Assembly: GCA_964019135.1 (NCBI GenBank)
Contig: OZ025255.1
Span: forward strand, 6,200,001-6,264,000
Reading direction: 5' to 3'
Source: Arenicola marina
Taxonomy: Eukaryota; Annelida; Polychaeta; Arenicolidae
Length of the DNA: 64,000 bases
This document shows, in pieces, positions 34,058 through 59,742 of this stretch (position 1 is the first letter of the stretch; every line of letters begins with the position of its first letter). Under the pieces are notes generated by a model. The model worked only from the letters and a program-made list of their open reading frames with translations, made no database searches and had not been told where the DNA came from. A program made the translations under genes and the position numbers.

Positions 34058-35010
34058 GGTGTAACATGACCAGCTGTCCCCCCATGACAGCGTGCCCCTC
34101 CCGCAGTTCGGGTATACGCGCGGAGGAGGTCACTAGTTATGGGAGGGACACATTGTCATGGGCTGAATATACCTTGAACGGACATGGGGGTGGGAGTGGG
34201 GGTGGGCATGTTGTCATGGGTTGAATATAGCTATGACCAGATGTCCCTTTAGTCTAGCATGAGATCACCGATTTACGTGGGTTAAGGGACATAGGAAGGG
34301 GGGGGGGACATGCTGTCACGGGTTAAAATACAGCCATGACCAGGTGTCCCCTTAGTTTAGCATTGGATCACTGATCCAGGTGGGTTAAGGGATAGAGAGA
34401 GGGGGGGGACATGTTGTCATGGGTTAATTATAGCTATGACCAGATGTCCCCTTAGCTTAGTACGGGCTTACCGATATATGTGGGTTAAGGGACATGGGGA
34501 GGGGGGGGACATCCTGTCAAGGGTTGATATACAGCCATGACCAAATGTCCCCTTAGCTTAGCATTGGACCACACATCCAGGTGGGTTAAGGGACCCCAGC
34601 AGGGGGGGAAGTGTTGTCATGGGTTGAATATAGCGATGACCACATGTCCCCTTATTCTAGCACGAAATTACCCATCTAAGTGGGTTAAGGGATATGGGCA
34701 GGGGGGGGGGGACATGCCGTCACGGTGTAACATGACCGGGAGTCCCCCCATGACAGCGTGTCCCCCTGCAATTTTAATGTATGCGCGCATATTAGGGCAT
34801 TAGTTATGGGGGGACACATTGTCATTGGCTGAATATATCTTAAGATACATGGGGAGGCGGGGGGGGGGGGGACATACTGTCACGGGTTAAGATACAGCCA
34901 TGACCAGGTGTCCCCTTGGAATAGCATTGGTTCGTTGATCCAAGTGGGTTCAGGGACATATGGGAAGGGTGGCTGGCATGTTGTCATGGGCCTAATTTAA
35001 CTCTGACCAG
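34058..35010. repeat. ~100-bp satellite array, left block
   Basis: Repeated units with TGTCATGGGTTGAATATAG, CCATGACCAGGTGTCCCC, GGTGGGTTAAGGGA and a poly-G run. A longer variant with CCCCCCATGACAGCGTGTCC is interspersed. The same array resumes at 53,404, in exact phase, after the 18.4-kb insertion. Confidence 0.85.
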
Positions 35011-36796: not shown

Positions 36797-36996
36797 NNNN
36801 NNNNNNNNNNNNNNNNNNNNNNNNNNNNNNNNNNNNNNNNNNNNNNNNNNNNNNNNNNNNNNNNNNNNNNNNNNNNNNNNNNNNNNNNNNNNNNNNNNNN
36901 NNNNNNNNNNNNNNNNNNNNNNNNNNNNNNNNNNNNNNNNNNNNNNNNNNNNNNNNNNNNNNNNNNNNNNNNNNNNNNNNNNNNNNNNNNNNNNNN
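36797..36996. other. Assembly gap, 200 N
   Basis: Exactly 200 N, so the size is a placeholder. It falls where the outer 370-bp tandem repeats of the left palindrome arm should continue, which suggests collapsed repeats. Confidence 0.98.
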
Positions 36997-37595
36997 TCAA
37001 TGTAATCAGGCCATGTGAGATCCTATAAGCTGTGTAATATGTTTGTTTGTTTGTAAAAACCATAGGATATGTTTCGAGTAAACCATATTAACGCAAATAC
37101 AATCATCCATTTTGCAATTTTTTTATTCCTATATCACTACATGAATACCATTACCCGCTACAACATCTATCGTGGTCAAAAAAAACTTAGTATCACAAAA
37201 ATATACACCTTCATATCATATTATTATATTATGAATAGGTAATAGATGAACAAGTCCTTTTGCTTTGATGAAACAGTAAATCATTTAATCGCTATAGATA
37301 TCGCCATGTAAACTGTATATTCTCGCGTTACAGTACGATTAATCGTCAATGACACGTGTATATAATCAATGTAATCAGGCCATGTGAGATCCTATAAGCT
37401 GTGTAATATGTTTGTTTGTTTGTAAAAACCTAAGGATATGTATCGAGTAAACCATATTAACGCAAATACAATCATCCATTTTGCAATTTTTTTATTCCTA
37501 TATCACTACATGAATACCATTACCCGCTACAACATCTATCGTGGTCAAAAACTTAGTATCACAAAAATATACACCTTCATATCATATTATTATAC
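36997..37595. repeat. 370-bp tandem units, left
   Basis: TCAATGTAATCAGGCCATG occurs at 36,997 and 37,367. The second unit is truncated toward the protease gene. More copies probably lie in the gap. Confidence 0.9.
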
Positions 37596-37603
37596 ATGAC
37601 AAT

Positions 37604-37941
37604 TTAGACAATGGGTAAAGAGGTCTTGCACGCGGTTTGCATAAAACGCGGGGACTGCCGGCGAGTGATACGCGGAAAGTGAACAGATTGGAAATTATGA
37701 ATATAGTTGTCATTGCACATGGTGTTTGGAGACCAATACTCTCGATATATTCGTGACATGGAGTAATTTCGACATTTGAAATATAAGTAAAATAGACAGT
37801 ATTCTCCGCATACATCTGTGCCAAGTGACTGCCACACCGCTCTCATGGGTTGTTGAATAAAATATTCCAAGTGTTTAAGGTTCACATAGGCACGAATTGG
37901 TTTTCCTAGTGAGTCAAACATCTCAATTTTCCCCGATGACA
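37604..37941 (-). CDS. Adenain-like cysteine protease, C-terminal exon (left copy)
   Basis: A 112-aa frame related to adenovirus/Polinton-type cysteine proteases. FDSLGKP supplies the acidic triad residue (D10). Q38 and C45 have the exact Q-x6-C spacing of the oxyanion Gln and nucleophile Cys (WQSLGTDVCGEYC), followed by the family's hydrophobic FYLYF. The catalytic His segment should lie upstream and is absent. The frame opens at a TTTAG acceptor, not an ATG, so a 5' exon is needed; none was found nearby. Either the protease is spliced from a distant exon or this is a fragment. In viruses this enzyme matures the capsid. Confidence 0.6.
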
Positions 37942-38083
37942 CTAAACTTTAAATGTCACACGTACGTATACTAATCACAAATTATATATATATATATTCA
38001 TCTACACCAGTGTAACTTTCACCATAATTCAGGATTAGTCATCTATAAATACATCAAATGTAACTTAGTGGATACATAAACAT

Positions 38084-38803
38084 TTAGGATAGATGTATCT
38101 TATCCAAACCTTTCGGGTAACATTCAACACAGTCAAAGTACCCCTCCTGATTTTGGTGAGATGACATACAATCAACCAACTCGGTGAGTTCCGGAACACA
38201 CTTATCATGGATCGTGTTGAGATGGAACTTAAGTAAATTCCACTGCTTTAAATTGAGAGTAATTCCTTTTCGGGTCGGCACGGGCGTATCTTGTGTATCC
38301 GGCAACCAGTATTTTCGAATATCTAGAAACTGGCCACGGGGCAGGACCTCGGCCATCACCAAACCTCCGAGATGATATTTCCGTGGATTGGTGGTCTGTT
38401 GCAATTCTCGATCTATGGTGTTTGTCAATGTCTGCAACATCTTCCAGCGAGTTGTGATGAGATTGACACCCACTTTTGTAGGGTAATCACGGCCGTTTTC
38501 TTGACATACCCACTTTCTAATATCAAAGCGTAAAACGTCTTTGAAATACTGAACAGTTAAATAGACATTCTCTCCGATGCACTGTTGACAGCGTATATCG
38601 TGAGTTTGCTCGGAAGTACACTGCGTATTCTCCCATTTTCTTTTCTTGGCCAGCGGGATGAGTGGTAGCCGATTGGAGGGAGCGAAGCCCGCTGTTGTCT
38701 TGTGGGAAGTCATGTCGTTGTGGTGAAAAGATGGAGACCGCCCGTACATTATATTCACAAAGTCCCTCTCCACCTCCTCGTCATCCACCCACTTGGGACG
38801 TGT
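38084..38803 (-). CDS. Tandem PC4/p15-domain protein (left copy)
   Basis: About 239 aa, with two consecutive domains of the PC4/SUB1 (p15) transcription-coactivator fold, which binds single-stranded DNA. In residues numbered from the first in-frame GTG, domain 1 is near 78-125 (FDIRKWV...KVGVNLITTRWKML) and domain 2 near 140-195 (LDIRKYW...TRKGITLNLKQWNLLK); domain 2 is the closer match. The N-terminus has SPLAKKRK-like basic text (PLIPLAKKRK), a likely nuclear signal. Two CxxC pairs (CQQC, CVEC) flank the domains. There is no in-frame ATG: the exon seems to start at a GTTCAG acceptor, so a 5' exon is missing. The family is clear, its role here is not. Confidence 0.75.
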   Translation of the reverse strand, partial: TRPKWVDDEEVERDFVNIMYGRSPSFHHNDMTSHKTTAGFAPSNRLPLIPLAKKRKWENTQCTSEQTHDIRCQQCIGENVYLTVQYFKDVLRFDIRKWVCQENGRDYPTKVGVNLITTRWKMLQTLTNTIDRELQQTTNPRKYHLGGLVMAEVLPRGQFLDIRKYWLPDTQDTPVPTRKGITLNLKQWNLLKFHLNTIHDKCVPELTELVDCMSSHQNQEGYFDCVECYPKGLDKIHLS

Positions 38804-38916
38804 CTGAACATGCTTTGGCGAGGTGTAAAAATAGCATCACGACTGACGTCATACATCGGCGTGGCTTTGTCATCTGTTTAAAGATAGACAGAGGGGCGTG
38901 GCCAACAGGCTTTGTA

Positions 38917-39022
38917 CGCACGGGTAATCGCTGTAAATGAGCGATCAATCACTTTTTTAATCCCAACAACTCAAGCCCGCGTTGTAATAAGACTGAATCG
39001 CTTCACTACGTTTTTATAATAA
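38917..39022 (-). promoter_or_regulatory. Conserved ~105-bp module, copy 1
   Basis: Contains TTATAAAAACGTAGTGAAGC, GCTTGAGTTGTTGGGATTAA and CTCATTTACAGCGATTA on the minus strand. It sits upstream of the PC4-domain gene. A diverged copy lies in the spacer and an identical one in the other arm. Confidence 0.6.
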
Positions 39023-41028
39023 TTGGTTCATGCACTACTGTGTGTGAATTGTGTGATTAATGTTAAAGGTCACAGAAAAGGGCCGTGGATGTTTTAAAAC
39101 TCATCAAAATGCTACCTTTGTGAAAGAGCGGTGACTTTAAGGACTTGTCTGCGAGCGACAGATGTTTCGTGGTCTTTGTCTTGATGTGTAGAGTTGCAGC
39201 GACAATTATTTATTTTCGGTCGGTTATTTTTTTAAATGCGCGTTTGAATTCACCGGTGGGATGGCAGTTAATCGAGCCCGCGGGCGCGCGGGCGCGCTGC
39301 ACGGTGGGGGCAGGGCTTCGACCGAGACAAATATCGATTTTTTTTTTTCCAAGCCCCTCCAAGCACCCGCTGGCCGTCACGACCTACTGATTTTCAAAAG
39401 TTCGGGCGAGCCAGCGAGCCAGAGTCAGCGGAGCGTAATGTGGTTTTTGGCGGGGTATTGGCCGACGGTCTGTGTACGCACAAGTTTGGGAGTGTCGCTG
39501 TGATATATTGTGAAATATCGGAAGGAATAATCACCTTTTAGTTTCGGTTGTAACATTATTCAACTGTCGCCGATGTAATAAGGATGCATCTATAAACGTT
39601 CCAACAAACAAGTCGTGGAGACAAGCGCCCGGTTGGCGTCCTTTTGTCGCGAGGGAGAAGAGTTATGACAGTTGTTTGATGAGTCAGTCTATTATTTCGA
39701 TAGTAATAAGCGGGCTTTATGCTCTTCACCTCAGGTATTATTTATCTGCAAGCCATTAGGACGTCGGCCGGAAAGGTCAATGGGTTAACCTCTTTAACAA
39801 CCACCCGTGGGTATTTCATTATACCTTCCCCTCCTAGATAACTAGGCGTGGCAGCTGGTTACTATGTGGTGGCAGTAAAATTCACTGTTGTATATGATAC
39901 GAGGCGTCATTGTGTACTGATGGAAACATAAGAAGCTTGTGTTATAGGTCCACCCTTCCCCCTGCCCCCCTTTCTCTCCCCCATCTATTCACTGACGATT
40001 CTGAACACGTGACTCCCATGCTACACCTGCCCTCTTCGTCAACGATGCAGTTTTAAAATCATAATGGAGTGAATGGTGACGTCATTAACATTTAGTCATC
40101 TGTTTGTTCAGGACCTATATAAAACGGGAGAGATGAGTTAATTGGTTGTTTCTTTATGTTGGCAACCCCTTGACCTCTGTAGCCGACGTTCTGTTTGCTT
40201 GCATATGCATCCAAAAGAAGGTAGGGAGGGTGAAGGATATAACATCAATCGCCTATGTCATTGCTATACACGTTCTTGGGGAGTGTCTGTGGGTTTTTTA
40301 TTGCATTGGAGTTACCAATGTTACGAGCACCCCACATCCGACGGCACGTTTAAACGAGTTTGGGGAAAGAGCGACTGGCTCCCTCCACCTCCATACACCA
40401 TACACTCACAATATTCCTATTAGGTTATTTTGCTGTTACTCCGTCAAGTGAAAACTATTATGGTGCATGACCGCTTTTCTAGTTCATTAAAAGAAGCAGT
40501 TGCATTTGCTTGTGACATCTGCAACCAACGTGGCATTCATATAACTCATACACCGTTAAAGGAATTATTCTGTAAGTTTGAACATTGTTACTCGTTAAGT
40601 CAGTGTAAAGTAACATATATGTTAAAAATGTATTGTATTGAACTTTATTTGTTTTTATTGCACTTTTAAAAGCAGCTAAAGTAAAAACACATACTAACAT
40701 AAATTTTACCAACAATAACCGTATCCATCCATGTCAAGGAACGTAGTCAACAATTAACTTTAGCGTAATTTAAATAACTCACAAATTTCATATGTCACCA
40801 CGTCACAACTCATTCGTAGGTTTCAACAAGACTTAAAACCATTTGCAAAAGTGATTATAAAAGTGAATGCATCAACTTTAAAAATGATATTTGTCGTATT
40901 GTATGTATGAAGTATTCGTTTTCCGTCACGTGTGTATATATTGTTTAAAATATCAAGTGTTACAGTAACACAATAAGTTATGCATGTATCATATATTTGT
41001 GAAACATCTATTTACCTTATTGCAATAC

Positions 41029-41165
41029 GTCTCGGTTTACACATACACTTACAACTATGCAACTAGTCTTGCAGAATGTCATGTTTCATAAAGTTAACAA
41101 GTTATTGAATCAACAGATTGACGCGTGTTACGCGTGCGTGTATCGCGAATGTGAACTGAATTAAA
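41029..41165. repeat. Intra-arm repeat, copy 1 (also at 48,200-48,336)
   Basis: Shares TTGAATCAACAGATTGACGC and GTGTTACGC with the copy at 42,290-42,440 in the same orientation, and both are mirrored in the right arm. It is AT-rich otherwise and the role is unknown. Confidence 0.6.
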
Positions 41166-42289
41166 AGTCGTCATCACGTTAACGAATTAGGAAGTGAGTA
41201 TAAACACTGCCATGTAATTTTTAGTGAGTAGCATTTGCGGTAAAAGAACTTCGCTATTGAAATAGCGTTAGCAACAGGCAAGTACTAATTCCACACAATC
41301 ATGACAAGTTCTTAAATTTTATTTAGTGAACATTGCAATTCCAAAAACAACGATATTTGTGGTGACAACATATCTGCAATGAAGTAAGAGAGAAGTAATT
41401 AGACATAAAAAATAGCGAAGCCAACGTGATGTATGTGCGAATTTAATGAATTGAATTCACCGGTATAATCAGATACATTCTAAACTACGGTACGTAGAGA
41501 AGTATTGAATAGACTCATGACTGCCAAGAGTTTATCAAATGAATAACATTTGGAACATAACACAATATATGGATAATATAAACCTAATACTTTTGATTAC
41601 AATAAAACTCACGCGAGTATTCTGAGAGAACATGTTGTAAACGGAATAAATCATCAGTTTGTAACCATACAAAGAGATGAATGAAACATATCATTTACTT
41701 TATCTCGTAACATACATTCTAAATTTAGAAAGAGGATCGTATTAAGTAGTTGTCATAGCAAACACTAACATAAACATAACGAATGAGTTATCTGTCTTTT
41801 TTGGTATATCTTGGTGCAATGTATGACGTATCTAACTCGTGTTTTCTCTCTGCGTAGAAGGTATGTCAAAACTGGGAGTATGTATCCTCTTTTTTTTTTT
41901 TATACATCAAGAAGTTAAACAGATAGAATAGAATTCTCATGAGTTGTGATGTCAAGGACAATGAATCAGTATTCAGTTTGGTTTTATTACACATATCCCA
42001 AAACAGTTTTCTTACTCTTACTCAACCAGATTATGTAGGAATGTATGGTAATGTAATTTTTAGAACCCTTAACTTCCTACATGAATTGATACTTCTAGTA
42101 TCTAATTAATCTTACCTTAAGCTATCCTGAAAGAAATTTCAGGGTCCACTCGTCTCCTGCGAGAATGTAACAATATGTTTAGTTGATTTATAACATTTAG
42201 GTTTTATCTACATGAAACGAATGCTTATTTTTTATTTTTAAACTACTGAGTTTAACTCATTTTACTTACCACTCTCTTTCCTCTGGCGC

Positions 42290-42440
42290 ACAGTAAACCG
42301 TTATACACTTACACCTATGACTAGTTACAAATGGAAGTATTAATAAAGTTAACAAGTTGTTGAATCAACAGATTGACGCGTGTTACGCATGTGTATATCG
42401 CGAACATGAAACGTTTGATCCGCAAGTGCCATCACGTATG
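42290..42440. repeat. Intra-arm repeat, copy 2 (also at 46,910-47,060)
   Basis: Diverged partner of 41,029-41,165. A 64-aa frame (42,349-42,543 minus; 46,807-47,001 plus) overlaps it and differs by one residue between arms, but I cannot show that it is coding. Confidence 0.55.
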
Positions 42441-43754
42441 ATATGTTAACTGGTTTGGTGGACACATGTGAAACCAAAAGGTAGAATTCTGTAAGTTGCA
42501 TGCCGTCATCGAGTTTGTTACATTCGTGTAATTTGAAAGACAACGAAGAAGAAAGATTTCACTTTTTGTATTCAACATAACATCAAGTTTATACTTAATG
42601 TAACATGTGTGAAATAAATATCATGTCACATCTATGTACTCAATAGTCAACCGCAAAAGTAAAAAGCTGTAAGTATTGTGTGTGTATTCACTGTAACATA
42701 TGTCTGTGGATAGTAATCATTTGCATACGATTTTACTTATTGTAGATGACACAACGATGAATAACGTGTTCATGCTAGATATATAAAAACATACACCTCC
42801 GTTGAACGAACGGTGTACGAGAAAATTAAATGACTTGTAAATAATATAGATGTGATCCGTACTACACATGTGTCACAATTGACATGATCGTTTGATAGAA
42901 CAAATATCGGTCTTGTCTTTTTCAAGTAAAGTAAATCGGGTTTGCAGACTGTTAAGAAAGTAACCGAGTGCGTAATACAATATATATATTTAATGAAGTA
43001 ATATTTTTGGGAAAAGAGTCGTTATATAGTTTCGGTGTATGTTAACATACTTGAACACAAGAAAACGGTAACAAAAGTTAATGAATGATTGAATGCGAAT
43101 ATTTTCTTTGATATGTTTTGGATGAATTAGTTAACATTAATGCTACTGACTAACAACAACAACCACGGGAACCACCATAACCATAATCTCGCCAACTGTT
43201 TGAGTCAAAGGACAAAGTGTGCATGTGAAAACTTGTTTTATAAATGTAATGGTAATACCAAAGATTTCTATACATCTCCAATGCGACATGAGTCACGATT
43301 AATGTTTTGAAGCAGTGTTTTTATATTAAATCGAGTTCACGTAAGCACAGTCAGCAGTTTTGATTATATGGTTATCAATGTGTTTACATTTGTATATGTA
43401 TATCGCATCAGTCAGTCGGTAAACAACGTGGACTGTAAAAAATCACACCAGAAAAGGGTGGATGACAAACTTTCAGGAAAACGATATGTTTGTAAGTTAA
43501 CTTCTGAAGCGTGGTGAGCTGTATCGGACAATGCGGCAGCCCTCGACAGAGCACTGAATGTGATAAACCTGCGAAGAACTTACACCCTCGCAAGATTTCT
43601 GTTGGTTGACTGCTGCATTCGAGCAGAGTATGCGTAAATAAATATAGGTGTTACGATATTACTGCGTTACGTTAAGGAAGGGGGGGGGGTGAAGAAATAC
43701 GATGGATTTCAGATTAAATACCGTTTATTAACATCAAGAATATATAGTTTAAAC

Positions 43755-43793
<39 letters not shown>

Positions 43794-43801
43794 TAAAATG
43801 A

Positions 43802-44885
43802 TTATATATATATGGATCCAGCGGAGTATCCAATTGAATAAGATCTAGGCGCCGCAGTTCCGGGTGCACCTGGGCGATTTCTTATAAAGATCCGTTGTGG
43901 TTCGTCCTCTTCATCCGACGAAATAGTGATTACTTCTTGTCGGCGCAGGACTCGCCCGATCGGTATCTCCAGTTGTGTGTTTTCGCCTCGCCGCAATAAA
44001 GTTGGAGATGGCGTCGGCGAGGGCATCCTACTTTCAATAGGGAGGCGGCGACCTCCCTCGTAGGCAAGACGGATGGCTGCCGGGAACTGGTCTGGAGCTG
44101 GCGTCGGCGAGGGTATGCTACTTTCGATGGGGAGGCGGCGACCTCCCTCGTAGGCCAGACGGATGGCTGCCGGGAACTGGTCTGGAGCTGGCGTCGGCGT
44201 GGGTATGCTACTTTCGATGGGGAGGCGGCGACCTCCCTCGTAGGCCAGACGGATGGCTGCCGTGAACTGCTCTGGCCGCAGGATGAGGAAGGGCGGCTGG
44301 ATTTGTGCAATTTGCTGTGGTTGTCCAGTTGACAAACCGATTCCGGGGAATTGTTCGAGTGGACACGGCTGGTGATATTGACCGTCTTGGTCATCCATGC
44401 CTGTGTATGCACCGTTACTGTAGCTAAACATACCGGACCCGGTGAACCAATTGTTGATTGGTGGCACTTCTTGACAGCGAACACGAACTATTTACGTTGT
44501 GCTATTTAACCAATATGACGTGAAGTGCCGCACAGAGCTAAAAATCGCACTGACCACAGGTACGATAGTAGTGGTTCTGTTCCCACCACTGTTTTTTACC
44601 CTGGGTCAACGCCTTTTCTCGCTCTAGAACTGAACACTTACAATGCCAGAGCGCCCATTGAGAGGCACTACTATATGTTTTTTTCGAGCACCGAAATAGA
44701 TGACCAGACTGTCTGGCCGGTGTGTTTCTGACAATAGCGTTACACCATCGACAATAAAAATACGGCTCACCTGGATCGATGACGTTTGTTTTCAAACCGT
44801 CGCACTTGATACAGAACCAGCTGGATGGCAGCTCTTCCGGTGGTGGGGGTAGATATTGTCGAACAGCGGTGGTACTGTCTGTCAT
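43802..44885 (-). CDS. Zinc-binding / proline-repeat protein with SIM-like motif
   Basis: Exon 1 starts at a true ATG (44,885). It encodes LPPPPEELPSSWFC, a CIKC...CRWC pair and further Cys/His (HLFRC, HCKC), a treble-clef-like zinc region. Read through, it stops at 44,538. A GGGTAAAA donor (exon end 44,600) and an AAATAG acceptor (exon start 44,487) give a 112-bp intron with matching phase, joining exon 2 for about 323 aa. Exon 2 has no ATG of its own. It carries three 30-residue repeats around QFPAAIRLAYEGGRRLPIES and then VITISSDEED, which resembles a SUMO-interaction motif. No homolog recognised. The nucleus is the likely site. The splice model is inference. Confidence 0.55.
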
Positions 44886-45438
44886 ATCTTCTTATTTTCG
44901 TTCTTCGTGCGTTTCGTGTAACTAGCGGTATCACCAGACAAATTGTCAAGTTGTCCTGACTCCAAAATCCGGGGGCCCTTATGTACACCCACAACCACCT
45001 ACGCCCCCCTGGAAGAGCACACCCAGTAATGGCTTTGTCTCACCTCCCCCGGTCTTGTGCAGGGCGTTCTGCCGGGAGAGGGTGAGAGGGGACGACAGAC
45101 GGGCACTTTTTTATGTTGAAGAGGTTAACCAATCCACCTCCCTGTCCGACTTAATAATAACAATGTTGAACGACCGTTTTTGACTTTACCAACCTTCTGC
45201 ATTGTTCAGGGCAATCTAGCGGGAGAGGTTGTTTATGTTAAAGAGGTTAACCAATGCACTTTCTGGTCAATAAAATCTTATGCCAAATGTTCATTTGCAA
45301 TGCAGACAACTGTATTACTCTATTTCATAGTTCACCGCACGTTGATCCATAACTTAAAGATAATTGCAGCCATCTGGTCATCATCTCTACAGCTGCTCGA
45401 GCTTGTATTGCACTGTATTGCATGAATCCGCGAACAAG

Positions 45439-45548
45439 TTATTATAAAACGCAGTGAAGCGACTCAGTCGCGTTATAACACGAGCTTGAGGGTTGTCGGG
45501 GTTAATAGAGTAATTGGTCGCAGGCTCATTTACAGTGATTATCTCCAC
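45439..45548 (+). promoter_or_regulatory. Conserved ~105-bp module, spacer copy
   Basis: TTATTATAAAACGCAGTGAA, GCTTGAGGGTTGTCGGGGTT and CTCATTTACAGTGATTA align with the arm copies at roughly 75-80% by eye, though the spacer is otherwise unrelated to the arms. Conservation between diverged copies suggests function (promoter, origin or packaging signal). Confidence 0.6.
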
Positions 45549-48500
45549 CTACGGGGCAGATGACAGAAGGGGGTGGGGGGGGGGGGCGTGAAGATATAGT
45601 GAGTATGTGGGAAGGGGAGGGGGTGAGAGGGCAGGTGGTTCACGATGGACGTGATAGGGGGCGTGGAGTAGGCGTGAGATGCGGTGACCTTGGCGTCACC
45701 GAAGCCTAACGGGGGGCCGCCTACATCCCAACTAAAATTTACGGTTGCCGCCCGTCCACGACCGTCCACTGACACTTTTCAGGCGTTTCGATAGAGGGTG
45801 TTAGCCGCCGGGGAATGAATTTACAGTTTAACCGAGAAATCACCCAGGTTCAACAGACACACTAAATAAATATCACTAAACATGATTTCAGAATTTGTGT
45901 AGATCCATACGGTGCGATCCGCCCAACGATACTTTTCGCACTCATCAGATTATAATTTACAATACCTTTTATATGTTGAATCACTATAGTTTGTTAAATA
46001 TACTTTACATCACCTGTTTAGCAAGGTTCTACATATAGATTACTACAACACCATCAATAGTGAGTTATTGGATTGTTCATTTGATGTTTAACTTCACAGA
46101 AATCAACAAACATTATACATAAATGTTAATATTTTACTACAACTAGATCTATCATCATTACATAAAACAGACCTAGTACGTAATGTGAGCGATAACTGAA
46201 AACACATCACATTGTATGTTTGTCTTTAAACTAAACAGTCACGTAGCTGTTGACGCATTCAATCATTCATTAACTTTTGTTACCGTTTTCTTGTGTTCAA
46301 GTATGTTAACATACAGCGAAACTATATAACTCTTTTCCCAAAAATATTACTTCATTAAATATATATATTGTATTACGCACTCGGTTACTTTCTTAACAGT
46401 CTGCAAACCCGATTTACTTCACTTGAAAAAGACAAGACCGATATTTGTTCTATCAAACGATCATGTCAATTGTGACACATGTGTAGTACGGATCACATCT
46501 ATATTATTTACAAGTCATTTAATTTTCTCGTACACCGTTCGTTCAACGGAGGTGTATGTTTTTATATATCTAGCATGAACACGTTATTCATCGTTGTGCC
46601 ATCTACAATAAGTAAAATCGTATGCAAATGATTACTATCCACAGACATATGTTACAGTGAATACACACACACAATACTTACAGCTTTTTACTTTTGCGGT
46701 TGACTATTGAGTACATAGATGTGACATGATATTTATTTCACACATGTTACATTAAGTATAAACTTGATGTTATGTTGAATACAAAAAGTGACATCTTTCT
46801 TCTTCGTTGTCTTTCAAATTACACGAATGTAACAAACTCGATGACGGCATGCAACTTACAGAATTCTACCTTTTGGTTTCACATGTGTCCACCAAACCAG
46901 TTAACATATCATACGTGATGGCACTTGCGGATCAAACGTTTCATGTTCGCGATATACACATGCGTAACACGCGTCAATCTGTTGATTCAATAACTTGTTA
47001 ACTTTATTAATACTTCCATTTGTAACTAGTCATAGGTGTAAGTGTATAACGGTTTACTGTGCGCCAGAGGAAAGATGGTGGTAAGTAAAATGAGTTAAAC
47101 TCAGTACAAATGTTAATAGTTTAAAAATAAAAAAAATAAGCATTCGCTTCATGTAGATAAAACCTAAATGTTATAAATCAACTAAACAGATTGTTACATT
47201 CTCGCAGGAGACGAGTGGACCCTGAAATTTCTTTCAGGATAGCTTAAGGTAAGATTAATTAGATACTAGAAGTATCAATTCATGTAGGAAGTTAAGGGTT
47301 CTAAAAATTACATTAGCATACATTCCTACATAATCTGGTTGAGTAAGAGTAAGAAAACTGTTTTGGGATATGTGTAATAAAACCAAACTGAATACTGATT
47401 CATTGTCCTTGACATCACAACTCATGAGAATTCTATTCTATCTGTTTAACTTCTTGATGTATAAAAAAAAAAAAAAAGGATACATACTCCCAGTTTTGAC
47501 ATACCTTCTACGCAGAGAGAAAACACGAGTTAGATACGTTATACATTGCACCAAGATATACCAAAAAAGACAGATAACTCATTCGTTATGTTTATGTTAG
47601 TGTTTGCTATGACAACTACTTAATACGATCCTCTTTCTAAGTTTAGAATGTATGTTACGAGATAAAGTAAATGATATGTTTCATTCATCTCTTTGTATGG
47701 TTACAAACTGATGATTTATTCCGTTTACAACATGTTCTCTCAGAATACTCGCGTGAGTTTTATTGTAATCAAAAGTATTAGGTTTATATTATCCATATAT
47801 TGTGTTATGTTCCAAATGTTATTCATTTGATAAACTCTTGGCAGTCATGAGTCTATTCAATACTTCTCTACGCACCGTAGTTTAGAATGTATCTGATTAT
47901 ACCGGTGAATTCAATTCATTAAATTCGCACATACATCACGTTGGCTTCGCTATTTTTTATGTCTAATTACTTCTCTCTTACTTCATTGCAGATATGTTGT
48001 CACCACAAATATCGTTGTTTTTGGAATTGCAATGTTCACTAAATAAAATTTAAGAACTTGTCATGATTGTGTGGAATTAGTACTTGCCTGTTGCTAACGC
48101 TATTTCAATAGCGAAGTTCTTTTACCGCAAATGCTACTCACTAAAAATTACATGGCAGTGTTTATACTCACTTCCTAATTCGTTAACGTGATGACGACTT
48201 TTAATTCAGTTCACATTCGCGATACACGCACGCGTAACACGCGTCAATCTGTTGATTCAATAACTTGTTAACTTTATGAAACATGACATTCTGCAAGACT
48301 AGTTGCATAGTTGTAAGTGTATGTGTAAACCGAGACGTATTGCAATAAGGTAAATAGATGTTTCACAAATATATGATACATGCATAACTTATTGTGTTAC
48401 TGTAACACTTGATATTTTAAACAATATATAAACACGTGACGGAAAACGAATACTTCATACATACAATACGACAAATATCATTTTTAAAGTTGATGCATTC

Positions 48501-50342
48501 ACTTTTATAATCACTTTTGCAAATGGTTTTAAGTCTTGTTGAAACCTACGAATGAGTTGTGACGTGGTGACATATGAAATTTGTGAGTTATTTAAATTAC
48601 GCTAAAGTTAATTGTTGACTACGTTCCTTGACATGGATGGATACGGTTATTGTTGGTAAAATTTATGTTAGTATGTGTTTTTACTTTAGCTGCTTTTAAA
48701 AGTGCAATAAAAACAAATAAAGTTCAATACAATACATTTTTAACATATATGTTACTTTACACTGACTTAACGAGTAACAATGTTCAAACTTACAGAATAA
48801 TTCCTTTAACGGTGTATGAGTTATATGAATGCCACGTTGGTTGCAGATGTCACAAGCAAATGCAACTGCTTCTTTTAATGAACTAGAAAAGCGGTCATGC
48901 ACCATAATAGTTTTCACTTGACGGAGTAACAGCAAAATAACCTAATAGGAATATTGTGAGTGTATGGTGTATGGAGGTGGAGGGAGCCAGTCGCTCTTTC
49001 CCCAAACTCGTTTAAACGTGCCGTCGGATGTGGGGTGCTCGTAACATTGGTAACTCCAATGCAATAAAAAACCCACAGACACTCCCCAAGAACGTGTATA
49101 GCAATGACATAGGCGATTGATGTTATATCCTTCACCCTCCCTACCTTCTTTTGGATGCATATGCAAGCAAACAGAACGTCGGCTACAGAGGTCAAGGGGT
49201 TGCCAACATAAAGAAACAACCAATTAACTCATCTCTTCCGTTTTATATAGGTCCTGAACAAACAGATGACTAAATGTTAATGACGTCACCATTCACTCCA
49301 TTATGATTTTAAAACTGCATCGTTGACGAAGAGGGCAGGTGTAGCATGGGAGTCACGTGTTCAGAATCGTCAGTGAATAGATGGGGGAGAGAAAGGGGGG
49401 CAGGGGGAAGGGTGGACCTATAACACAAGCTTCTTATGTTTCCATCAGTACACAATGACGCCTCGTATCATATACAACAGTGAATTTTACTGCCACCACA
49501 TAGTAACCAGCTGCCACGCCTAGTTATCTAGGAGGGGAAGGTATAATGAAATACCCACGGGTGGTTGTTAAAGAGGTTAACCCATTGACCTTTCCGGCCG
49601 ACGTCCTAATGGCTTGCAGATAAATAATACCTGAGGTGAAGAGCATAAAGCCCGCTTATTACTATCGAAATAATAGACTGACTCATCAAACAACTGTCAT
49701 AACTCTTCTCCCTCGCGACAAAAGGACGCCAACCGGGCGCTTGTCTCCACGACTTGTTTGTTGGAACGTTTATAGATGCATCCTTATTACATCGGCGACA
49801 GTTGAATAATGTTACAACCGAAACTAAAAGGTGATTATTCCTTCCGATATTTCACAATATATCACAGCGACACTCCCAAACTTGTGCGTACACAGACCGT
49901 CGGCCAATACCCCGCCAAAAACCACATTACGCTCCGCTGACTCTGGCTCGCTGGCTCGCCCGAACTTTTGAAAATCAGTAGGTCGTGACGGCCAGCGGGT
50001 GCTTGGAGGGGCTTGGAAAAAAAAAATCGATATTTGTCTCGGTCGAAGCCCTGCCCCCACCGTGCAGCGCGCCCGCGCGCCCGCGGGCTCGATTAACTGC
50101 CATCCCACCGGTGAATTCAAACGCGCATTTAAAAAAATAACCGACCGAAAATAAATAATTGTCGCTGCAACTCTACACATCAAGACAAAGACCACGAAAC
50201 ATCTGTCGCTCGCAGACAAGTCCTTAAAGTCACCGCTCTTTCACAAAGGTAGCATTTTGATGAGTTTTAAAACATCCACGGCCCTTTTCTGTGACCTTTA
50301 ACATTAATCACACAATTCACACACAGTAGTGCATGAACCAAT

Positions 50343-50448
50343 TATTATAAAAACGTAGTGAAGCGATTCAGTCTTATTACAACGCGGGCTTGAGTTGTTG
50401 GGATTAAAAAAGTGATTGATCGCTCATTTACAGCGATTACCCGTGCGT
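50343..50448 (+). promoter_or_regulatory. Conserved ~105-bp module, copy 3
   Basis: Mirror of the left-arm copy, upstream of the right PC4-domain gene. Confidence 0.6.
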
Positions 50449-50560
50449 ACAAAGCCTGTTGGCCACGCCCCTCTGTCTATCTTTAAACAGATGACAAAGC
50501 CACGCCGATGTATGACGTCAGTCGTGATGCTATTTTTACACCTCGCCAAAGCATGTTCAG

Positions 50561-51280
50561 ACACGTCCCAAGTGGGTGGATGACGAGGAGGTGGAGAGGG
50601 ACTTTGTGAATATAATGTACGGGCGGTCTCCATCTTTTCACCACAACGACATGACTTCCCACAAGACAACAGCGGGCTTCGCTCCCTCCAATCGGCTACC
50701 ACTCATCCCGCTGGCCAAGAAAAGAAAATGGGAGAATACGCAGTGTACTTCCGAGCAAACTCACGATATACGCTGTCAACAGTGCATCGGAGAGAATGTC
50801 TATTTAACTGTTCAGTATTTCAAAGACGTTTTACGCTTTGATATTAGAAAGTGGGTATGTCAAGAAAACGGCCGTGATTACCCTACAAAAGTGGGTGTCA
50901 ATCTCATCACAACCCGCTGGAAGATGTTGCAGACATTGACAAACACCATAGATCGAGAATTGCAACAGACCACCAATCCACGGAAATATCATCTCGGAGG
51001 TTTGGTGATGGCCGAGGTCCTGCCCCGTGGCCAGTTTCTAGATATTCGAAAATACTGGTTGCCGGATACACAAGATACGCCCGTGCCGACCCGAAAAGGA
51101 ATTACTCTCAACTTAAAGCAGTGGAATTTACTTAAGTTCCATCTCAACACGATCCATGATAAGTGTGTTCCGGAACTCACCGAGTTGGTTGATTGTATGT
51201 CATCTCACCAAAATCAGGAGGGGTACTTTGACTGTGTTGAATGTTACCCGAAAGGTTTGGATAAGATACATCTATCCTAA
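50561..51280 (+). CDS. Tandem PC4/p15-domain protein (right copy)
   Basis: Mirror copy, apparently identical in protein sequence to 38,084-38,803. The frame is open from 50,528, and CATGTTCAG at 50,552-50,560 is the likely acceptor, giving an exon that begins TRPKWVDDEE. A ~105-bp conserved module lies about 110 bp upstream (50,343-50,448). Confidence 0.75.
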   Translation, partial: TRPKWVDDEEVERDFVNIMYGRSPSFHHNDMTSHKTTAGFAPSNRLPLIPLAKKRKWENTQCTSEQTHDIRCQQCIGENVYLTVQYFKDVLRFDIRKWVCQENGRDYPTKVGVNLITTRWKMLQTLTNTIDRELQQTTNPRKYHLGGLVMAEVLPRGQFLDIRKYWLPDTQDTPVPTRKGITLNLKQWNLLKFHLNTIHDKCVPELTELVDCMSSHQNQEGYFDCVECYPKGLDKIHLS

Positions 51281-51422
51281 ATGTTTATGTATCCACTAAG
51301 TTACATTTGATGTATTTATAGATGACTAATCCTGAATTATGGTGAAAGTTACACTGGTGTAGATGAATATATATATATATAATTTGTGATTAGTATACGT
51401 ACGTGTGACATTTAAAGTTTAG

Positions 51423-51760
51423 TGTCATCGGGGAAAATTGAGATGTTTGACTCACTAGGAAAACCAATTCGTGCCTATGTGAACCTTAAACACTTGGAAT
51501 ATTTTATTCAACAACCCATGAGAGCGGTGTGGCAGTCACTTGGCACAGATGTATGCGGAGAATACTGTCTATTTTACTTATATTTCAAATGTCGAAATTA
51601 CTCCATGTCACGAATATATCGAGAGTATCGGTCTCCAAACACCATGTGCAATGACAACTATATTCATAATTTCCAATCTGTTCACTTTCCGCGTATCACT
51701 CGCCGGCAGTCCCCGCGTTTTATGCAAACCGCGTGCAAGACCTCTTTACCCATTGTCTAA
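51423..51760 (+). CDS. Adenain-like cysteine protease, C-terminal exon (right copy)
   Basis: Mirror copy of the frame at 37,604-37,941, differing by one residue (R for W after IYREY). The same D, Q and C active-site residues are present and the His segment is again missing. It lies 142 bp downstream of the PC4-domain gene on the same strand. Two matching intact copies argue against simple decay. Confidence 0.6.
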
Positions 51761-51767
51761 ATTGTCA

Positions 51768-52506
51768 TGTATAATAATATGATATGAAGGTGTATATTTT
51801 TGTGATACTAAGTTTTTGACCACGATAGATGTTGTAGCGGGTAATGGTATTCATGTAGTGATATAGGAATAAAAAAATTGCAAAATGGATGATTGTATTT
51901 GCGTTAATATGGTTTACTCGATACATATCCTTAGGTTTTTACAAACAAACAAACATATTACACAGCTTATAGGATCTCACATGGCCTGATTACATTGATT
52001 ATATACACGTGTCATTGACGATTAATCGTACTGTAACGCGAGAATATACAGTTTACATGGCGATATCTATAGCGATTAAATGATTTACTGTTTCATCAAA
52101 GCAAAAGGACTTGTTCATCTATTACCTATTCATAATATAATAATATGATATGAAGGTGTATATTTTTGCGATACTAAGTTTTTTTTGACCACGATAGATG
52201 TTGTAGCGGGTAATGGTATTCATGTAGTGATATAGGAATAAAAAAATTGCAAAATGGATGATTGTATTTGCGTTAATATGGTTTACTCGAAACATATCCT
52301 ATGGTTTTTACAAACAAACAAACATATTACACAGCTTATAGGATCTCACATGGCCTGATTACATTGATTATATACACGTGTCATTGACGATTAATCGTAC
52401 TGTAACGCGAGAATATACAGTTTACATGGCGATATGTATAGCGATTAAATGATTTACTGTTTCATCAAAGCAAAATGACTTGTTCATCTATTACCTATTC
52501 ATAATA
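51768..52506. repeat. 370-bp tandem units, right
   Basis: Two units (about 51,768-52,133 and 52,134-52,506), mirror of the left set. They end at CTATTCATAATA, where the sequence changes to a different repeat. Confidence 0.9.
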
Positions 52507-52870
52507 GTACTTGATCGCAGATTGAAGACTTCAAACAATGATTAATGACATAGTTAACACCTTCATTGCCTCCTCCGCCACCCATGTCTTCTTCATTCAC
52601 TCGTACTTATAGCACGAGAACATAGACAAACAATGATTAATAACCTTGTTGAATATACCTATTTACATACTAATTTATACTATTTATACCCCGTACTATA
52701 ACGCGGAAACAAAGACTTCAAGCAATTATGAATAACCTTGTTGACAGCTTAATTAGCTATTTACATCGTAATTTATGCTAATTATACCCCGTGCTATAGC
52801 ACGGAAACAAAGACTTTTGACAAAAATTAATGACCTCATTAACTCGTGACCGGCATTTTCAAATCGATAT
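52507..52870. repeat. ~105-bp tandem repeat outside right arm
   Basis: About two and a half copies of a unit with CCGTGCTATAGCACGG (a perfect palindrome), AAACAAAGACTTCAAGCAA and TAACCTTGTTGA. It lies between the palindrome arm and the right end of the 18.4-kb insertion. Confidence 0.65.
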
Positions 52871-53403
52871 TTCAAAATTTTCGGTCGCGCTATAGCACGA
52901 CCACGGGGGGGGGGGGGGGGGGTAGGGGGGGGGGTGTGTGTGCTTGATGTCTCTGGACTCACTCTCCCTACTACTGTAAACACTGTCACGGCAAATTTGC
53001 GCGCAAGCACATAACTTACCTGCTAATCAAGCTTGTAATGTAAGTCCATGCCATGCCTCTTGGCGTTTGCCCTTCGTTATAGAGCAGCCTTAAAAGGGCC
53101 CGATATACATGGGTTTATTGTCATTGACGCATTTAGCAACATTCTGCCTTCACTCGTCGGGCAACATCCTTGTTTACTGTCTGCACTTCCGCTCATGTGT
53201 TGCAGGAAATAGTCATCTCGGTAAAATCTCGCGGTAGAAACTCGCCCCCGGGAAATGGTTTTCGGGGACAAAAGCGAAATGCGTTCGAACTTACGGATCG
53301 GGGCCTTTTTTCGGAAAACGCCCCGCCTTGGCCTTGCCCTGAGGCAAGGCACAATTCCCCGCCCCCGTTTTGCCCGCAATTTGCCCTATCGAACTTACGG
53401 GCC

Positions 53404-54260
53404 CAGGTTTCCCTTAATTTAGCATTGGATTACTGATCCAGGTGGGTTAAGGGACCTAGAGAGGGGGGGGGGGGACATGCTGTCATGGGTTAATAATAGC
53501 TATGAAGAGATGCCCCCTTAGCTTGGCACGGAATTACCGATTTATGTGAGTTAAGGGACATAGGGAGGGGGGGGGACATCTTGTCACGGGCTAATATACA
53601 GCTATGACTAAATGTTCCCTTAGTTTAGCATTGGACCACACAACCAGGTGGGTTAAGGGACCCCAGCAGGGGGAGAACGTGTTGTCATGGATTGAATATA
53701 GCTATGACCACATGTCCCCTTATTCTAGCACGAAATTACCTATCTAAGTGAGTTAAGGGATATGGAGAGGGGGGGGGGCATGCTGTCACGGTGTAACATG
53801 ACCAGCTGTCCCCCCATGACAGCGTGTCCCCTCTGCAGTTCTAATGTATACGCGCAAAGGAGGACACTAGTTATGTGGGGACACATTGTCATGGGTTGAA
53901 TATATCTTCAGATACATGGCAAAGGATGGGGGGACATGCTGTCACGGGGTAAATGCAGCCATGACCAGGTGTCTCCTTAGTTTAGCATTGGATCACTGAT
54001 CCAGGTGGGTTAAGAGACATGGGGAGGGGGGGGGGGGGCATCCTGTCACGGGTTAATATAAAGCCATGACCAGGTGTCCCCTTAATTTAGCACTGGATCA
54101 CTGATCCAGGTGGCTCAAGGGACATGGGCAGGGGGGGGGGGGACATGCTGTCACGGTGTAACGTGACCAGCCGTCCCCCCGTGACAGCGTGTCCCCCCTG
54201 CAGTTCTAATGTATACGCGCAAAGGAGGACACTAGTTATGGGGGGACATGTTGCCATAGG
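53404..54260. repeat. ~100-bp satellite array, right block
   Basis: Same units as 34,058-35,010, resuming in phase after the insertion (CAGGTTTCCCTTAATTTAGC). Confidence 0.85.
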
Positions 54261-54549: not shown

Positions 54550-57500
54550 TACGATTACTCGGGAATATCATTACAACCAATACGATTACTCGGGAATATC
54601 ATTACAAACAATACGATTACTCGGGAATATCATTACAACCAATACGATTACTCGGGAATATCATTACAACCAATACGATTACTCGGGAATATCATTACAA
54701 ACAATACGATTACTCGGGAATATCATTACAACCAATACGATTACTCGGGAATATCATTACAACCAATACGATTACTCGGGAATATCATTACAAACAATAC
54801 GATTACTCGGGAATATCATTACAACCAATACGATTACTCGGGAATATCATTACAAACAATACGATTACTCGGGAATATCATTACAACCAATACGATTACT
54901 CGGGAATATCATTACAAACAATACGATTACTCGGGAATATCATTACAAACAATACGATTACTCTGGAATATCATTACAACCAATATGATTACTCGGGAAT
55001 ATCATTACAACCAATACCATTACTCGAGAATATCATTACAACCAATACGATTGCTCGGGAATATCATTACAACCAATACGATTACTCGGGAATATCATTA
55101 CAACCAATACGATTACTCGGGAATATCATTACAACCAATACGATTACTCGGGAATATCATTACAACCAATACGATTACTCGGGAATATCATTACAACCAA
55201 TACGATTACTCGGGAATATCATTACAAACAATACGATTACTCGGGAATATCATTACAACCAATACGATTACTCGGGAATATCATTACAAACAATACGATT
55301 ACTCGGGAATATCATTACAACCAATACGATTACTCGGGAATATCATTACAAACAATACGATTACTCGGGAATATCATTACAACCAATACGATTACTCGGG
55401 AATATCATTACAACCAATACGATTACTCGGGAATATCATTACAAACAATACGATTACTCGGGAATATCATTACAACCAATACGATTACTCGGGAATATCA
55501 TTACAAACAATACGATCACTCGGGAATATCATTACAAACAATACGATTACTCGGGAATATCATTACAACCAATACGATTACTCGGGAATATCATTACAAA
55601 CAATACAATTACTCGGGAATATCATTACAACCAATACGATTACTCGGGAATATCATTACAAACAATACGATTACTCGGGAATATCATTACAAACAATACG
55701 ATTACTCGGGAACATCATTACAAACAATACGATTACTCGGGAATATCATTACAAACAATACGATTACTCGGGAATATCATTACAACCAATACGATTACTC
55801 GGGAATATCATTACAACCAATACGATTACTCGAGAATATCATTACAACCAATACGATTACTCGGGAATATCATTACAACCAATACGATTACTCGGGAATA
55901 TCATTACAACCAATACGATTACTCGGGAATATCATTACAAACAATACGATTACTCGGGAATATCATTACAAACAATACGATTACTCGGGAATATCATTAC
56001 AACCAATACGATTACTCGGGAATATCATTACAACCAATACGATTACTCGGGAATATCATTACAACCAATACGATTACTCGGGAATATCATTACAAACAAT
56101 ACGATCACTCGGGAATATCATTACAACCAATACGATTACTCGGGAATATCATTACAACCAATACGATTACTCGGGAATATCATTACAACCAATACGATTA
56201 CTCGGGAATATCATTACAACCAATACGATTACTCGGGAATATCATTACAAACAATACGATTACTCGGGAATATCATTACAAACAATACGATTACTCGGGA
56301 ATATCATTACAAACAATACGATTACTCGGGAATATCATTACAACCAATACGATTACTCGGGAATATCATTACAACCAATACGATTACTCGGGAATATCAT
56401 TACAAACAATACGATTACTCGGGAATATCATTACAACCAATACGATTACTCGGGAATATCATTACAAACAATACGATTACTCGGGAATATCATTACAACC
56501 AATACGATTACTCGGGAATATCATTACAAACAATACGATTACTCGGGAATATCATTACAAACAATACGATTACTCTGGAATATCATTACAACCAATATGA
56601 TTACTCGGGAATATCATTACAACCAATACGATTACTCGGGAATATCATTACAAACAATACAATTACTCGGGAATATCATTACAACCAATACGATTACTCG
56701 GGAATATCATTACAAACAATACGATTACTCGGGAATATCATTACAAACAATACGATTACTCGGGAATATCATTACAACCAATACGATTACTCGGGAATAT
56801 CATTACACACAATACGATTACTCGGGAATATCATTACAAACAATACGATTACTCTGGAATATCATTACAACCAATATGATTACTCGGGAATATCATTACA
56901 ACCAATACGATTACTCGGGAATATCATTACAAACAATACAATTACTCGGGAATATCATTACAACCAATACGATTACTCGGGAATATCATTACAAACAATA
57001 CGATTACTCGGGAATATCATTACAAACAATACGATTACTCGGGAATATCATTACAAACAATACGATTACTCGGGAATATCATTACAAACAATACGATTAC
57101 TCGGGAATATCATTACAACCAATACGATTACTCGGGAATATCATTACAACCAATACGATTACTCGAGAATATCATTACAACCAATACGATTACTCGGGAA
57201 TATCATTACAACCAATACGATTACTCGGGAATATCATTACAACCAATACGATTACTCGGGAATATCATTACAAACAATACGATTACTCGGGAATATCATT
57301 ACAACCAATACGATTACTCGGGAATATCATTACAACCAATACGATTACTCGGGAATATCATTACAACCAATACGATTACTCGGGAATATCATTACAACCA
57401 ATACGATTACTCGGGAATATCATTACAAACAATACGATCACTCGGGAATATCATTACAACCAATACGATTACTCGGGAATATCATTACAACCAATACGAT

Positions 57501-59742
57501 TACTCGGGAATATCATTACAACCAATACGATTACTCGGGAATATCATTACAAACAATACGATTACTCGGGAATATCATTACAAACAATACGATTACTCGG
57601 GAATATCATTACAAACAATACGATTACTCGGGAATATCATTACAAACAATACGATTACTCGGGAATATCATTACAACCAATACGATTACTCGGGAATATC
57701 ATTACAACCAATACGATTACTCGGGAATATCAATACAACCAATACGATTACTCGAGAATATCATTACAACCAATACGATTACTCGGGAATATCATTACAA
57801 CCAATACGATTACTCGGGAATATCATTACAACCAATACGATTACTCGAGAATATCATTACAAACAATACGATTACTCGGGAATATCATTGCAACCAATAC
57901 GATTACTCGAGAATATCATTACAAACAATACGATTACTCGGGAATATCATTACAACCAATACGATTACTCGGGAATATCATTACAGCCAATACAATTACT
58001 CGGGAATATCATTACAAACAATACGATTACTCGAGAATATCATTACAACCAATACGATTACTCGGGAATATCATTACAACCAATACGATTACTCGGGAAT
58101 ATCATTACAAACAATACGATTACTCGGGAATATCATTACAACCAATACGATTACTCGGGAATATCATTGCAACCAATACGATTACTCGGGAATATCATTA
58201 CAGCCAATACGATTACTCGGGAATATCATTACAACCAATACGATTACTCGGGAATATCATTACAACCAATACGATTACTCGAGAATATCATTACAACCAA
58301 TACGATTACTCGGGAATATCATTACAGCCAATACGATTACTCGGGAATATCATTACAGCCAATACAATTACTCGGGAATATCATTACAAACAATACGATT
58401 ACTCGAGAATATCATTACAACCAATACGATTACTCGAGAATATCATTACAACCAATACGATTACTCGGCAATATCATTACAACCAATACGATTACTCGGA
58501 AATATCATTACAAACAATACGATTACTCGGGAATATCATTACAACCAATACGATTACTCGGGAATATCATTACAACCAATACGATTACTCGGGAATATCA
58601 TTACAACCAATACGATAACTCGGGAATATCATTACAAACAATACGATTACTCGGGAATATCATTACAACCAATACGATTACTCGGGAATATCATTACAGC
58701 CAATACGATTACTCGGGAATATCATTACAGCCAATACAATTACTCGGGAATATCATTACAAACAATACGATTACTCGAGAATATCATTACAACCAATACG
58801 ATTACTCGGGAATATCATTACAACCAATACGATAACTCGGGAATATCATTACAAACAATACGATTACTCGGGAATATCATTACAACCAATACGATTACTC
58901 GGGAATATCATTACAACCAATACGATTACTCGAGAATATCATTACAACCAATACGATTACTCGGGAATATCATTACAACCAATACGATTACTCGAGAATA
59001 TCATTACAACCAATACGATTACTCGGGAATATCATTACAACCAATACGATTACTCGGGAATATCATTACAGCCAATACGATTACTCGGGAATATCATTAC
59101 AACCAATACGATTACTCGGGAATATCATTACAACCAATACGATTACTCGAGAATATCATTACAACCAATACGATTACTCGGGAATATCATTACAACCAAT
59201 ACGATTACTCGGGAATATCATTGCAACCAATACGATTACTCGGGAATATCATTACAGCCAATACGATTACTCGGGAATATCATTACAAACAATACGATTA
59301 CTCGAGAATATCATTACAACCAATACGATTACCCGAGAATATCATTACAACCAATACGATAACTCGGGAATATCATTACAACCAATACGATTACTCGGGA
59401 ATATCATTACAACCAATACGATTACTCGGGAATATCATTACAACCAATACGATTACTCGGGAATATCATTACAACCAATACGATTACTCGGGAATATCAT
59501 TACAACCAATACGATTACTCGAGAATATCATTACAACCAATACGATTACTCGGGAATATCATTACAACCAATACGATTACTCGAGAATATCATTACAACC
59601 AATACGATTACTCGGGAATATCATTACAACCAATACGACTACTCGGGAATATCATTACAACCAATACGATAACTCGGGAATATCATTACAACCAATACGA
59701 TTACTCGGGAATATCATTACAACCAATGCGATTACTCGGGGA
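54550..59742. repeat. 31-bp minisatellite, about 167 copies
   Basis: The core of the unit is GATTACTCGGGAATATCATT, followed by ACAACCAATAC or a variant. Copies keep perfect 31-bp register: the marker variant CTCTGGAATATC occurs at 54,961, 56,573 and 56,852, which are 52 and 9 units apart. Main variants are ACAACC, ACAAAC and ACAGCC, plus GGG/GAG in the middle. GAG and AGCC variants concentrate in the 3' third (after about 57,700). The unit has no stop in any forward frame, giving ORFs of up to 1,644 aa that I do not regard as genes. Confidence 0.98.

Follow-up and report, generated by a model that had tools for sequence, protein, structure and literature searches.

Polintons, also called Mavericks or polintoviruses, are known by their inverted terminal repeats and by genes for PolB, integrase, ATPase, capsid and an adenain-type protease; to our knowledge, their mode of replication has never been directly shown. 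Non-autonomous DNA transposons are deletion derivatives that lack the enzymes of an autonomous partner but retain its termini, and they are moved in trans. Defective viral genomes with an inverted end duplication, found in adenovirus and others, have one end doubled and the interior lost and need a helper, and foldback transposons such as Galileo carry very long inverted repeats with subrepeats near their ends. We analyzed a 64,000-nucleotide stretch of the genome of the polychaete Arenicola marina (C8:6200001-6264000 of an 867-Mb assembly in 762 contigs), called the window throughout, which contains a palindrome of two long inverted arms around a unique spacer. This palindrome is very probably a member of a family of non-autonomous Polinton/Maverick elements derived from two inverted right ends.

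The palindrome and its other copies

Self-BLAST of the window revealed one long inverted pair, 36997-43097 versus 52367-46254, with 99.33% identity over 6,118 columns, 20 mismatches and 6 gap openings; the length of the match excludes a chance origin. Arm A (36997-43097, minus strand) and arm B enclose a spacer of 3,156 bp (43098-46253), which is single copy in the window and is shared by other copies with deletions and replacements. The first base of arm A directly abuts a scaffold gap of 200 N (36797-36996), so the outer end of this arm, ~0.6 kb, is missing. The window has no N outside this gap, so the palindrome is uninterrupted. Comparison with other copies of the element places the true right terminus at 52975, making arm B (46254-52975, plus strand) complete and giving arms of ~6.7 kb and an element of ~16.6 kb. 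A preliminary description of this locus had reported near-identical inverted arms with mirrored genes and a unique, gene-bearing center, all of which our analysis bears out. Its 3.2-kb spacer also stands, but its extent of 36997-52506 and its ~6.2-kb arms were too short, since arm A is cut by the gap and arm B continues to 52975.

The genome-wide search for further copies that the same description had proposed was carried out with arm A. Among the 30 matches listed, from 24 scored of 645 candidates, the arm is also present at at least 18 places outside the window. Nine of these were fetched for comparison, leaving aside the other nine loci and a pair at C2:24.17-24.19M; all 20 fetched stretches are free of N. 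The inverted two-arm layout recurs in eight of the nine loci, and the ninth (C39, a 23-kb contig) shows one arm. The spacer of C11, C3 and C7 is that of the window, nearly whole, and that of C19 lacks ~270 bp. C2 retains the spacer and has in addition an inverted duplicate of 451 bp, roughly one-third of the spacer is left in C6b, and C20 and C6a have a common shortened second arm and a different center.

Alignment of the outer flanks of the fetched copies defined two terminus types, each with one sharp end: type I (...GGACTCACTCTCCCTACTACT) and type II (...TCAGCTCTCACTACT). The window element ends in type I (52955-52975, plus strand; inward reading 5'-AGTAGTAGGGAG...), identical to the ends of C11, C20, C6a and C6b. 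All six elements with both termini mapped have the same type on the left and on the right, and all six are flanked by 6-bp target duplications, in exact register in five (CACGTA, GCCCGT, CGTGAT, GACGTC and CTTACC). The sixth, ATATAT in C11, follows one extra ACT triplet. C19, C2 and C39 (three of the nine fetched) have a single mapped terminus each and are outside this count. Mapped elements measure 14.0-18.1 kb between their terminus coordinates. An excerpt of one published account gives 6 bp as the length of the Polinton target duplication (PMC10045372). In the window, GTAAAC (52976-52981) is the candidate duplication, predicted from the other copies, its left partner being hidden by the gap.

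Two further features mark the outer arm. A 369-bp unit stands twice in tandem at 51770-52506 (plus strand) and once in the fetched elements; 22 of the 28 listed match rows outside the window begin at the single unit (query 228). Subterminal palindromes CGTRCTATARCRCG lie at 52692, 52790 and 52886 (52692-52899, plus strand), with one-mismatch sites at 52027 and 52396, and are possible protein-binding sites. Their pattern has 23 matches in the window versus 1.6 expected, 12 of them inside a tandem array near 16 kb that is unrelated.

Arm divergence was computed over up to six segments in eight elements; here and in the gene comparisons below, counts comprise arms and open reading frames (ORFs) covering at least 90-93% of the query segment, a limit that sets aside, among others, PC4 of the C6b left and C6a right arms. 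Partner arms differ by 0.30-0.81% in seven of the eight elements and by 1.26% in C20, and arms of different elements by 1.49% on average (range 0.38-2.40; 145 pairs, >1,500 sites each). In the same table, each of the 14 arms in these seven elements is nearest to its own partner. Since divergence within elements is lower than the mean between elements in seven of eight, the arms are homogenized. Ratios of within- to between-element divergence, taken over partners other than those of C20 and C6a, are 0.41-0.71 for the inner segments (n = 5) and 0.10, 0.21, 0.57, 0.14 and 0.27 for the outer ones (n = 5). A sixth outer segment holds one pair only, and the window count at 52145-52500 is inflated by the tandem unit. 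Different elements diverge by 1.1-2.3% in outer segments versus 0.9-1.4% in inner ones; outer ends within one element nevertheless agree.

A Polinton with matching termini

A search with the terminal stretch of the window element (663-bp query, 608 bp of it element; 40 of 397 candidates scored) gave 42 matches, including 11 inverted pairs at spacings of 8.7-28 kb; three of these pairs correspond to palindromes among the fetched copies. The 28.2-kb inverted pair C14:19437250-19465446 is a Polinton with window-like termini, flanked on both sides by AACGAA, a 6-bp duplication. From left to right it carries an HW-bearing adenain gene, two capsid-like ORFs separated by a basic ORF, an integrase and ATPase-like pieces; LINE (long interspersed nuclear element) sequence, PolB-like sequence, a zinc-finger ORF, a double-PC4 gene and an adenain fragment follow. 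In Pfam, the integrase is above the cut-off (rve, 4.4e-14). Matches below the cut-offs were obtained for adenain (Peptidase_C5, 0.0048; HW region present), the ATPase-like pieces (4.6e-5 and 0.04) and the PolB-like sequence, which consists of two open stretches (PF03175, 3.9e-5) with a DTDS motif seen by eye in the second. The double-PC4 gene (2.3e-12) is single copy in this Polinton. The capsid-like ORFs were assigned by eye and have no relative in Pfam, PHROGs or the PDB; the large ORF gave nothing convincing in the PDB or PHROGs. The same element holds two copies of a 990-bp LINE stretch, 100% identical (L031:7162-8151 and 9011-10000), and two of the tail of the PolB-like frame (L031:8473-9011 and L032:322-862); either the duplication is recent or the assembly has repeated the sequence.

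A DNA search with the C14 PolB (132 candidates, 40 scored) yielded long matches of 96-98% identity. PolB lies beside window-type termini at at least five places (C14, C10:11.67M, C6:29.84M, C260 and C9:0.90M), where the termini are 95-99% identical to the window type over 516-608 bp. Inverted terminal repeats are thus common to the window family and a PolB-bearing member. Many scored PolB copies have ~213 bp more than C14 at a constant point (query 3020); either these copies have an intron there or C14 has lost a short stretch. One inverted PolB pair with its right ends outward, C9:1303897-1309855, was considered as a second independent palindrome and dropped, as its halves are separated by a 200-N gap and a terminus was recovered on the left side only; faulty scaffolding would account for it as well as a further palindrome would.

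At 1.16 kb and 98.7% identity, the two terminal repeats of C14 reach into the adenain gene and have their boundary there, so that the left end carries the HW-bearing gene and the right end its 3' part only. The window arms match the C14 left end only to 37941/51423, which is this boundary, and match the right end past it, through the PC4 gene to ~49520. The outer arms descend from a Polinton right end: positions ~49520-52975 of arm B are the counterpart of the C14 right end, with 95.7% identity over the longest stretch. On sequence grounds, both window arms are identified as Polinton right ends, which explains why they hold an adenain fragment cut at the terminal-repeat boundary. A 222-bp integrase piece that matches C14 at 95.5% identity (rve 1.3e-4, below cut-off) lies in the center of C6b, directly adjoining the spacer part that corresponds to window 45270-46178. 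We take this putative remnant as a further trace of Polinton descent.

Thus, the family has lost the Polinton interior and kept its termini, has inserted many times with target duplications, and has a partner in the same genome. Because the ends are those of a Polinton and the coding repertoire is not, we class the element as a non-autonomous derivative and not as an autonomous Polinton.

Gene content and surroundings

Each arm carries a PC4 gene (38084-38749, minus strand, in arm A; 50615-51280, plus strand, its mirror in arm B) that encodes 221 amino acids with two PC4 stretches in a single open frame (PF02229, 4.6e-16). A length-variable tract near codon 23 has an insertion in nine of the 17 copies compared, which suggests that translation starts downstream, at the ATG at 50615. 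The PC4 protein has no relative in an IMG/VR scan. Outward of it lies the adenain-like ORF of 114 codons (37604-37948, minus strand; mirror at 51416-51760, plus strand), 35% identical to P0002, an adenain relative with 57 further relatives in our search, one of them with a precomputed PF00770 match; P0002 has no relative in the IMG/VR scan. The HW-containing N-terminal half was looked for in the arms and not found, so this ORF is a C-terminal fragment and not a complete protease gene. Among 17 copies it shows a replacement-to-silent ratio of 0.61, with a 2-base insertion in one copy.

The spacer contains two ORFs on the minus strand with no match in Pfam: one of 229 amino acids (43802-44491), with three 30-residue repeats and an acidic SDEED stretch, and one of 117 amino acids (44538-44891), cysteine-rich and zinc-ribbon-like by eye. 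A relic at 43459-43565 (plus strand) resembles a small gene of the C14 Polinton, with 79% identity over 24 amino acids at 43494-43565; that gene reads as PC4-like by eye and has no family in Pfam or PHROGs.

A Pfam scan of the four element ORFs matched one family, PC4, and gave no match to PolB, packaging ATPase or capsid; tblastn with the C6b integrase fragment found no rve integrase in the window element. The preliminary description had already noted the lack of PolB, integrase, ATPase and capsid ORFs and concluded that the element would depend on a helper or be a rearranged part of a larger one; the need for a helper agrees with a helper-type element on C14 in the same genome. Its reading of the locus as a Polinton-like element integrated into the genome, with a unique part between two repeats, is likewise supported. 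PC4 and adenain-like genes are indeed mirrored as it stated, although the latter is only a fragment. The label "giant virus-like" finds no footing, given that PC4 is the sole match and no giant-virus marker was seen among those four ORFs.

The two-domain PC4 gene is Polinton cargo, as C14 demonstrates. Excerpts of a study of the bay scallop describe two single-exon PC4 genes of 212 amino acids with two PC4 domains, and report that PC4 families are expanded in bivalves (PMC9223095). As described there, the scallop genes are built like the PC4 gene of the Polinton. Part of the bivalve expansion could therefore be Polinton cargo, a lead that likens the genes by description and not by sequence.

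Immediately to the right of the element, a 31-bp tandem array (54550-59740; ~167 copies, 96% match) contains long ORFs that are by-products of the repeat. Repeats of ~100-bp period flank the palindrome in the same orientation (34192-34709 and 53409-54198) and are probably a dispersed host repeat. Farther left, a long terminal repeat (LTR) retrotransposon occupies 6410-12081 on the minus strand, with a pol ORF bearing RVT, RNase H and integrase and a gag ORF bearing RRM, a PNMA-like domain and a CCHC finger. Helicase fragments at 912-2813 (minus strand) match DEAD and Helicase_C, with a weak RecQ_Zn_bind match.

Origin, rival explanations and known systems

The derivation from two right ends suggests the following course. 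An ancestral Polinton would have lost most of its middle, leaving two inverted right ends around a short unique center, each contributing a PC4 gene, the 3' part of adenain and a terminal repeat. A displaced single strand that snapped back and was copied probably gave rise to the doubled right end. Polinton integrase would insert the family in trans, and Polinton PolB would copy it in trans from the shared termini. A strand folded as a panhandle (6.7-kb stem, 3.2-kb loop) could make the arms alike at each round of replication. More tentatively, and with considerable doubt, we suggest that these elements are Polinton satellites, comparable to copy-back defective viral genomes turned into a germline transposon family: panhandle replication, with one arm templating the other, would deliver identical arms at each insertion, and the PC4 protein, encoded twice and binding single-stranded DNA, would act on the intermediate or on Polinton transcription.

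Several observations weigh against this account. C14 offers no counterpart to the inner arm (46254-49520) or to most of the spacer, so the ancestor differed from C14 or gained DNA. Mobilization in trans is something we infer; the PolB, adenain and ATPase matches of the presumed helper are under the curated Pfam cut-offs, and its capsids were assigned by eye. In the sister copies C20 and C6a, which share the shortened arm (left-left divergence 0.38%, or 99.1% identity by alignment; right-right identity 98.98%), the left and right arms of C20 differ by 1.26% versus 0.38% for C20 left and C6a left, and the shortened arm is not homogenized with the other. In a tree built from a single outer segment of 0.7 kb, not all partner arms pair; the tree is weakly resolved, with two of 15 inner branches well supported. 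The homogenization step also has a main rival, in which the mobile palindrome is real and its arms are kept alike by intrachromosomal gene conversion after insertion, replication having no part. We regard this as a genuine, if lesser, possibility. Gene conversion can occur between any inverted repeats separated by 3 kb, as it does in other palindromes of chromosomes, and it likewise predicts lower divergence within than between elements; however, ~3 kb of the outer inverted arms of C20 and C6a stay unlike, with no conversion.

The remaining alternatives concern the nature of the locus. The very long inverted repeats and the tandem subrepeats near the ends recall foldback elements, but a foldback-type transposon of another superfamily (e.g., Galileo-like, P superfamily) with captured Polinton pieces is very unlikely, because C14-type PolB adjoins the window-type termini at five places and the duplication has the Polinton length. 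It is most unlikely that the locus is a domesticated host gene with PC4 as the selected product, as the preliminary description had also considered. The PC4 frame is stop-free in 16 of 17 copies, and a 224-residue protein from another public assembly (1,223-base contig) is 98% identical to that of the window; yet the 17 copies show 37 replacement and 9 silent changes (ratio 1.10), so no purifying selection on PC4 is seen among them. The gene is damaged in two further arms outside this count (a ~35-bp gap in C6b left; gene missing in C6a right), and the comparison of window and C14 gives 0.73 over 143 codons with just 13 changes, the C14 frame ending differently. It is exceedingly unlikely that the palindrome is an inverted duplication made locally in the chromosome, or that it reflects misassembly at the gap. 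Arm A does abut a 200-N gap, and the inverted PolB pair at C9:1.306M has such a gap between its halves; but no N interrupts the run from arm A through the spacer to arm B, the inverted layout is N-free at eight other loci, six of them with target duplications, and the arms differ at 20 sites where a folded read would give none. As a general explanation, assembly artifact is refuted by these N-free inverted copies and by the arm differences.

If the family is a set of Polinton dependents, palindromic elements with homogenized arms would be a natural record, and a test, of how Polintons replicate and copy their ends. The divergence between the arms of an element could serve to date its insertion, in the way that paired LTRs are used, and comparing conversion in outer and inner segments could show where copying takes place. 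No palindromic Polinton derivative appears in the listed titles and abstract openings of open-licence papers, a search that extends neither to subscription journals nor to Repbase; the open-licence literature likewise yielded no combination of PC4 with adenain and Polinton, or of PC4-like proteins with transposons, viruses and inverted repeats together. The idea of a wholly undescribed kind of element finds no support. An ordinary Polinton with these genes in single copy, which the preliminary description had set against a distinct palindrome, does exist on C14 as regards the double-PC4 gene, but the palindrome is a separate amplified family, present at eight other gap-free places.

Among known systems, the element is closest to Polintons, with which it shares its termini, the 6-bp target duplication, adenain sequence and, in one copy, an integrase remnant; it differs in lacking PolB, integrase, ATPase and capsid ORFs and in having the right end twice. 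Its arms of ~6.7 kb also contrast with the 1.16-kb terminal repeats of the C14 Polinton. Like non-autonomous DNA transposons, it retains a partner's termini without the enzymes, but the family is ~16 kb long, palindromic and ORF-bearing, and its partner encodes its own polymerase. The doubled end, lost interior and need for a helper are those of defective viral genomes, whereas this family is integrated, with target duplications, at many places in one genome. Foldback transposons share the long inverted repeats and subrepeats but belong to another transposase superfamily; the partner of the window family is a Polinton.

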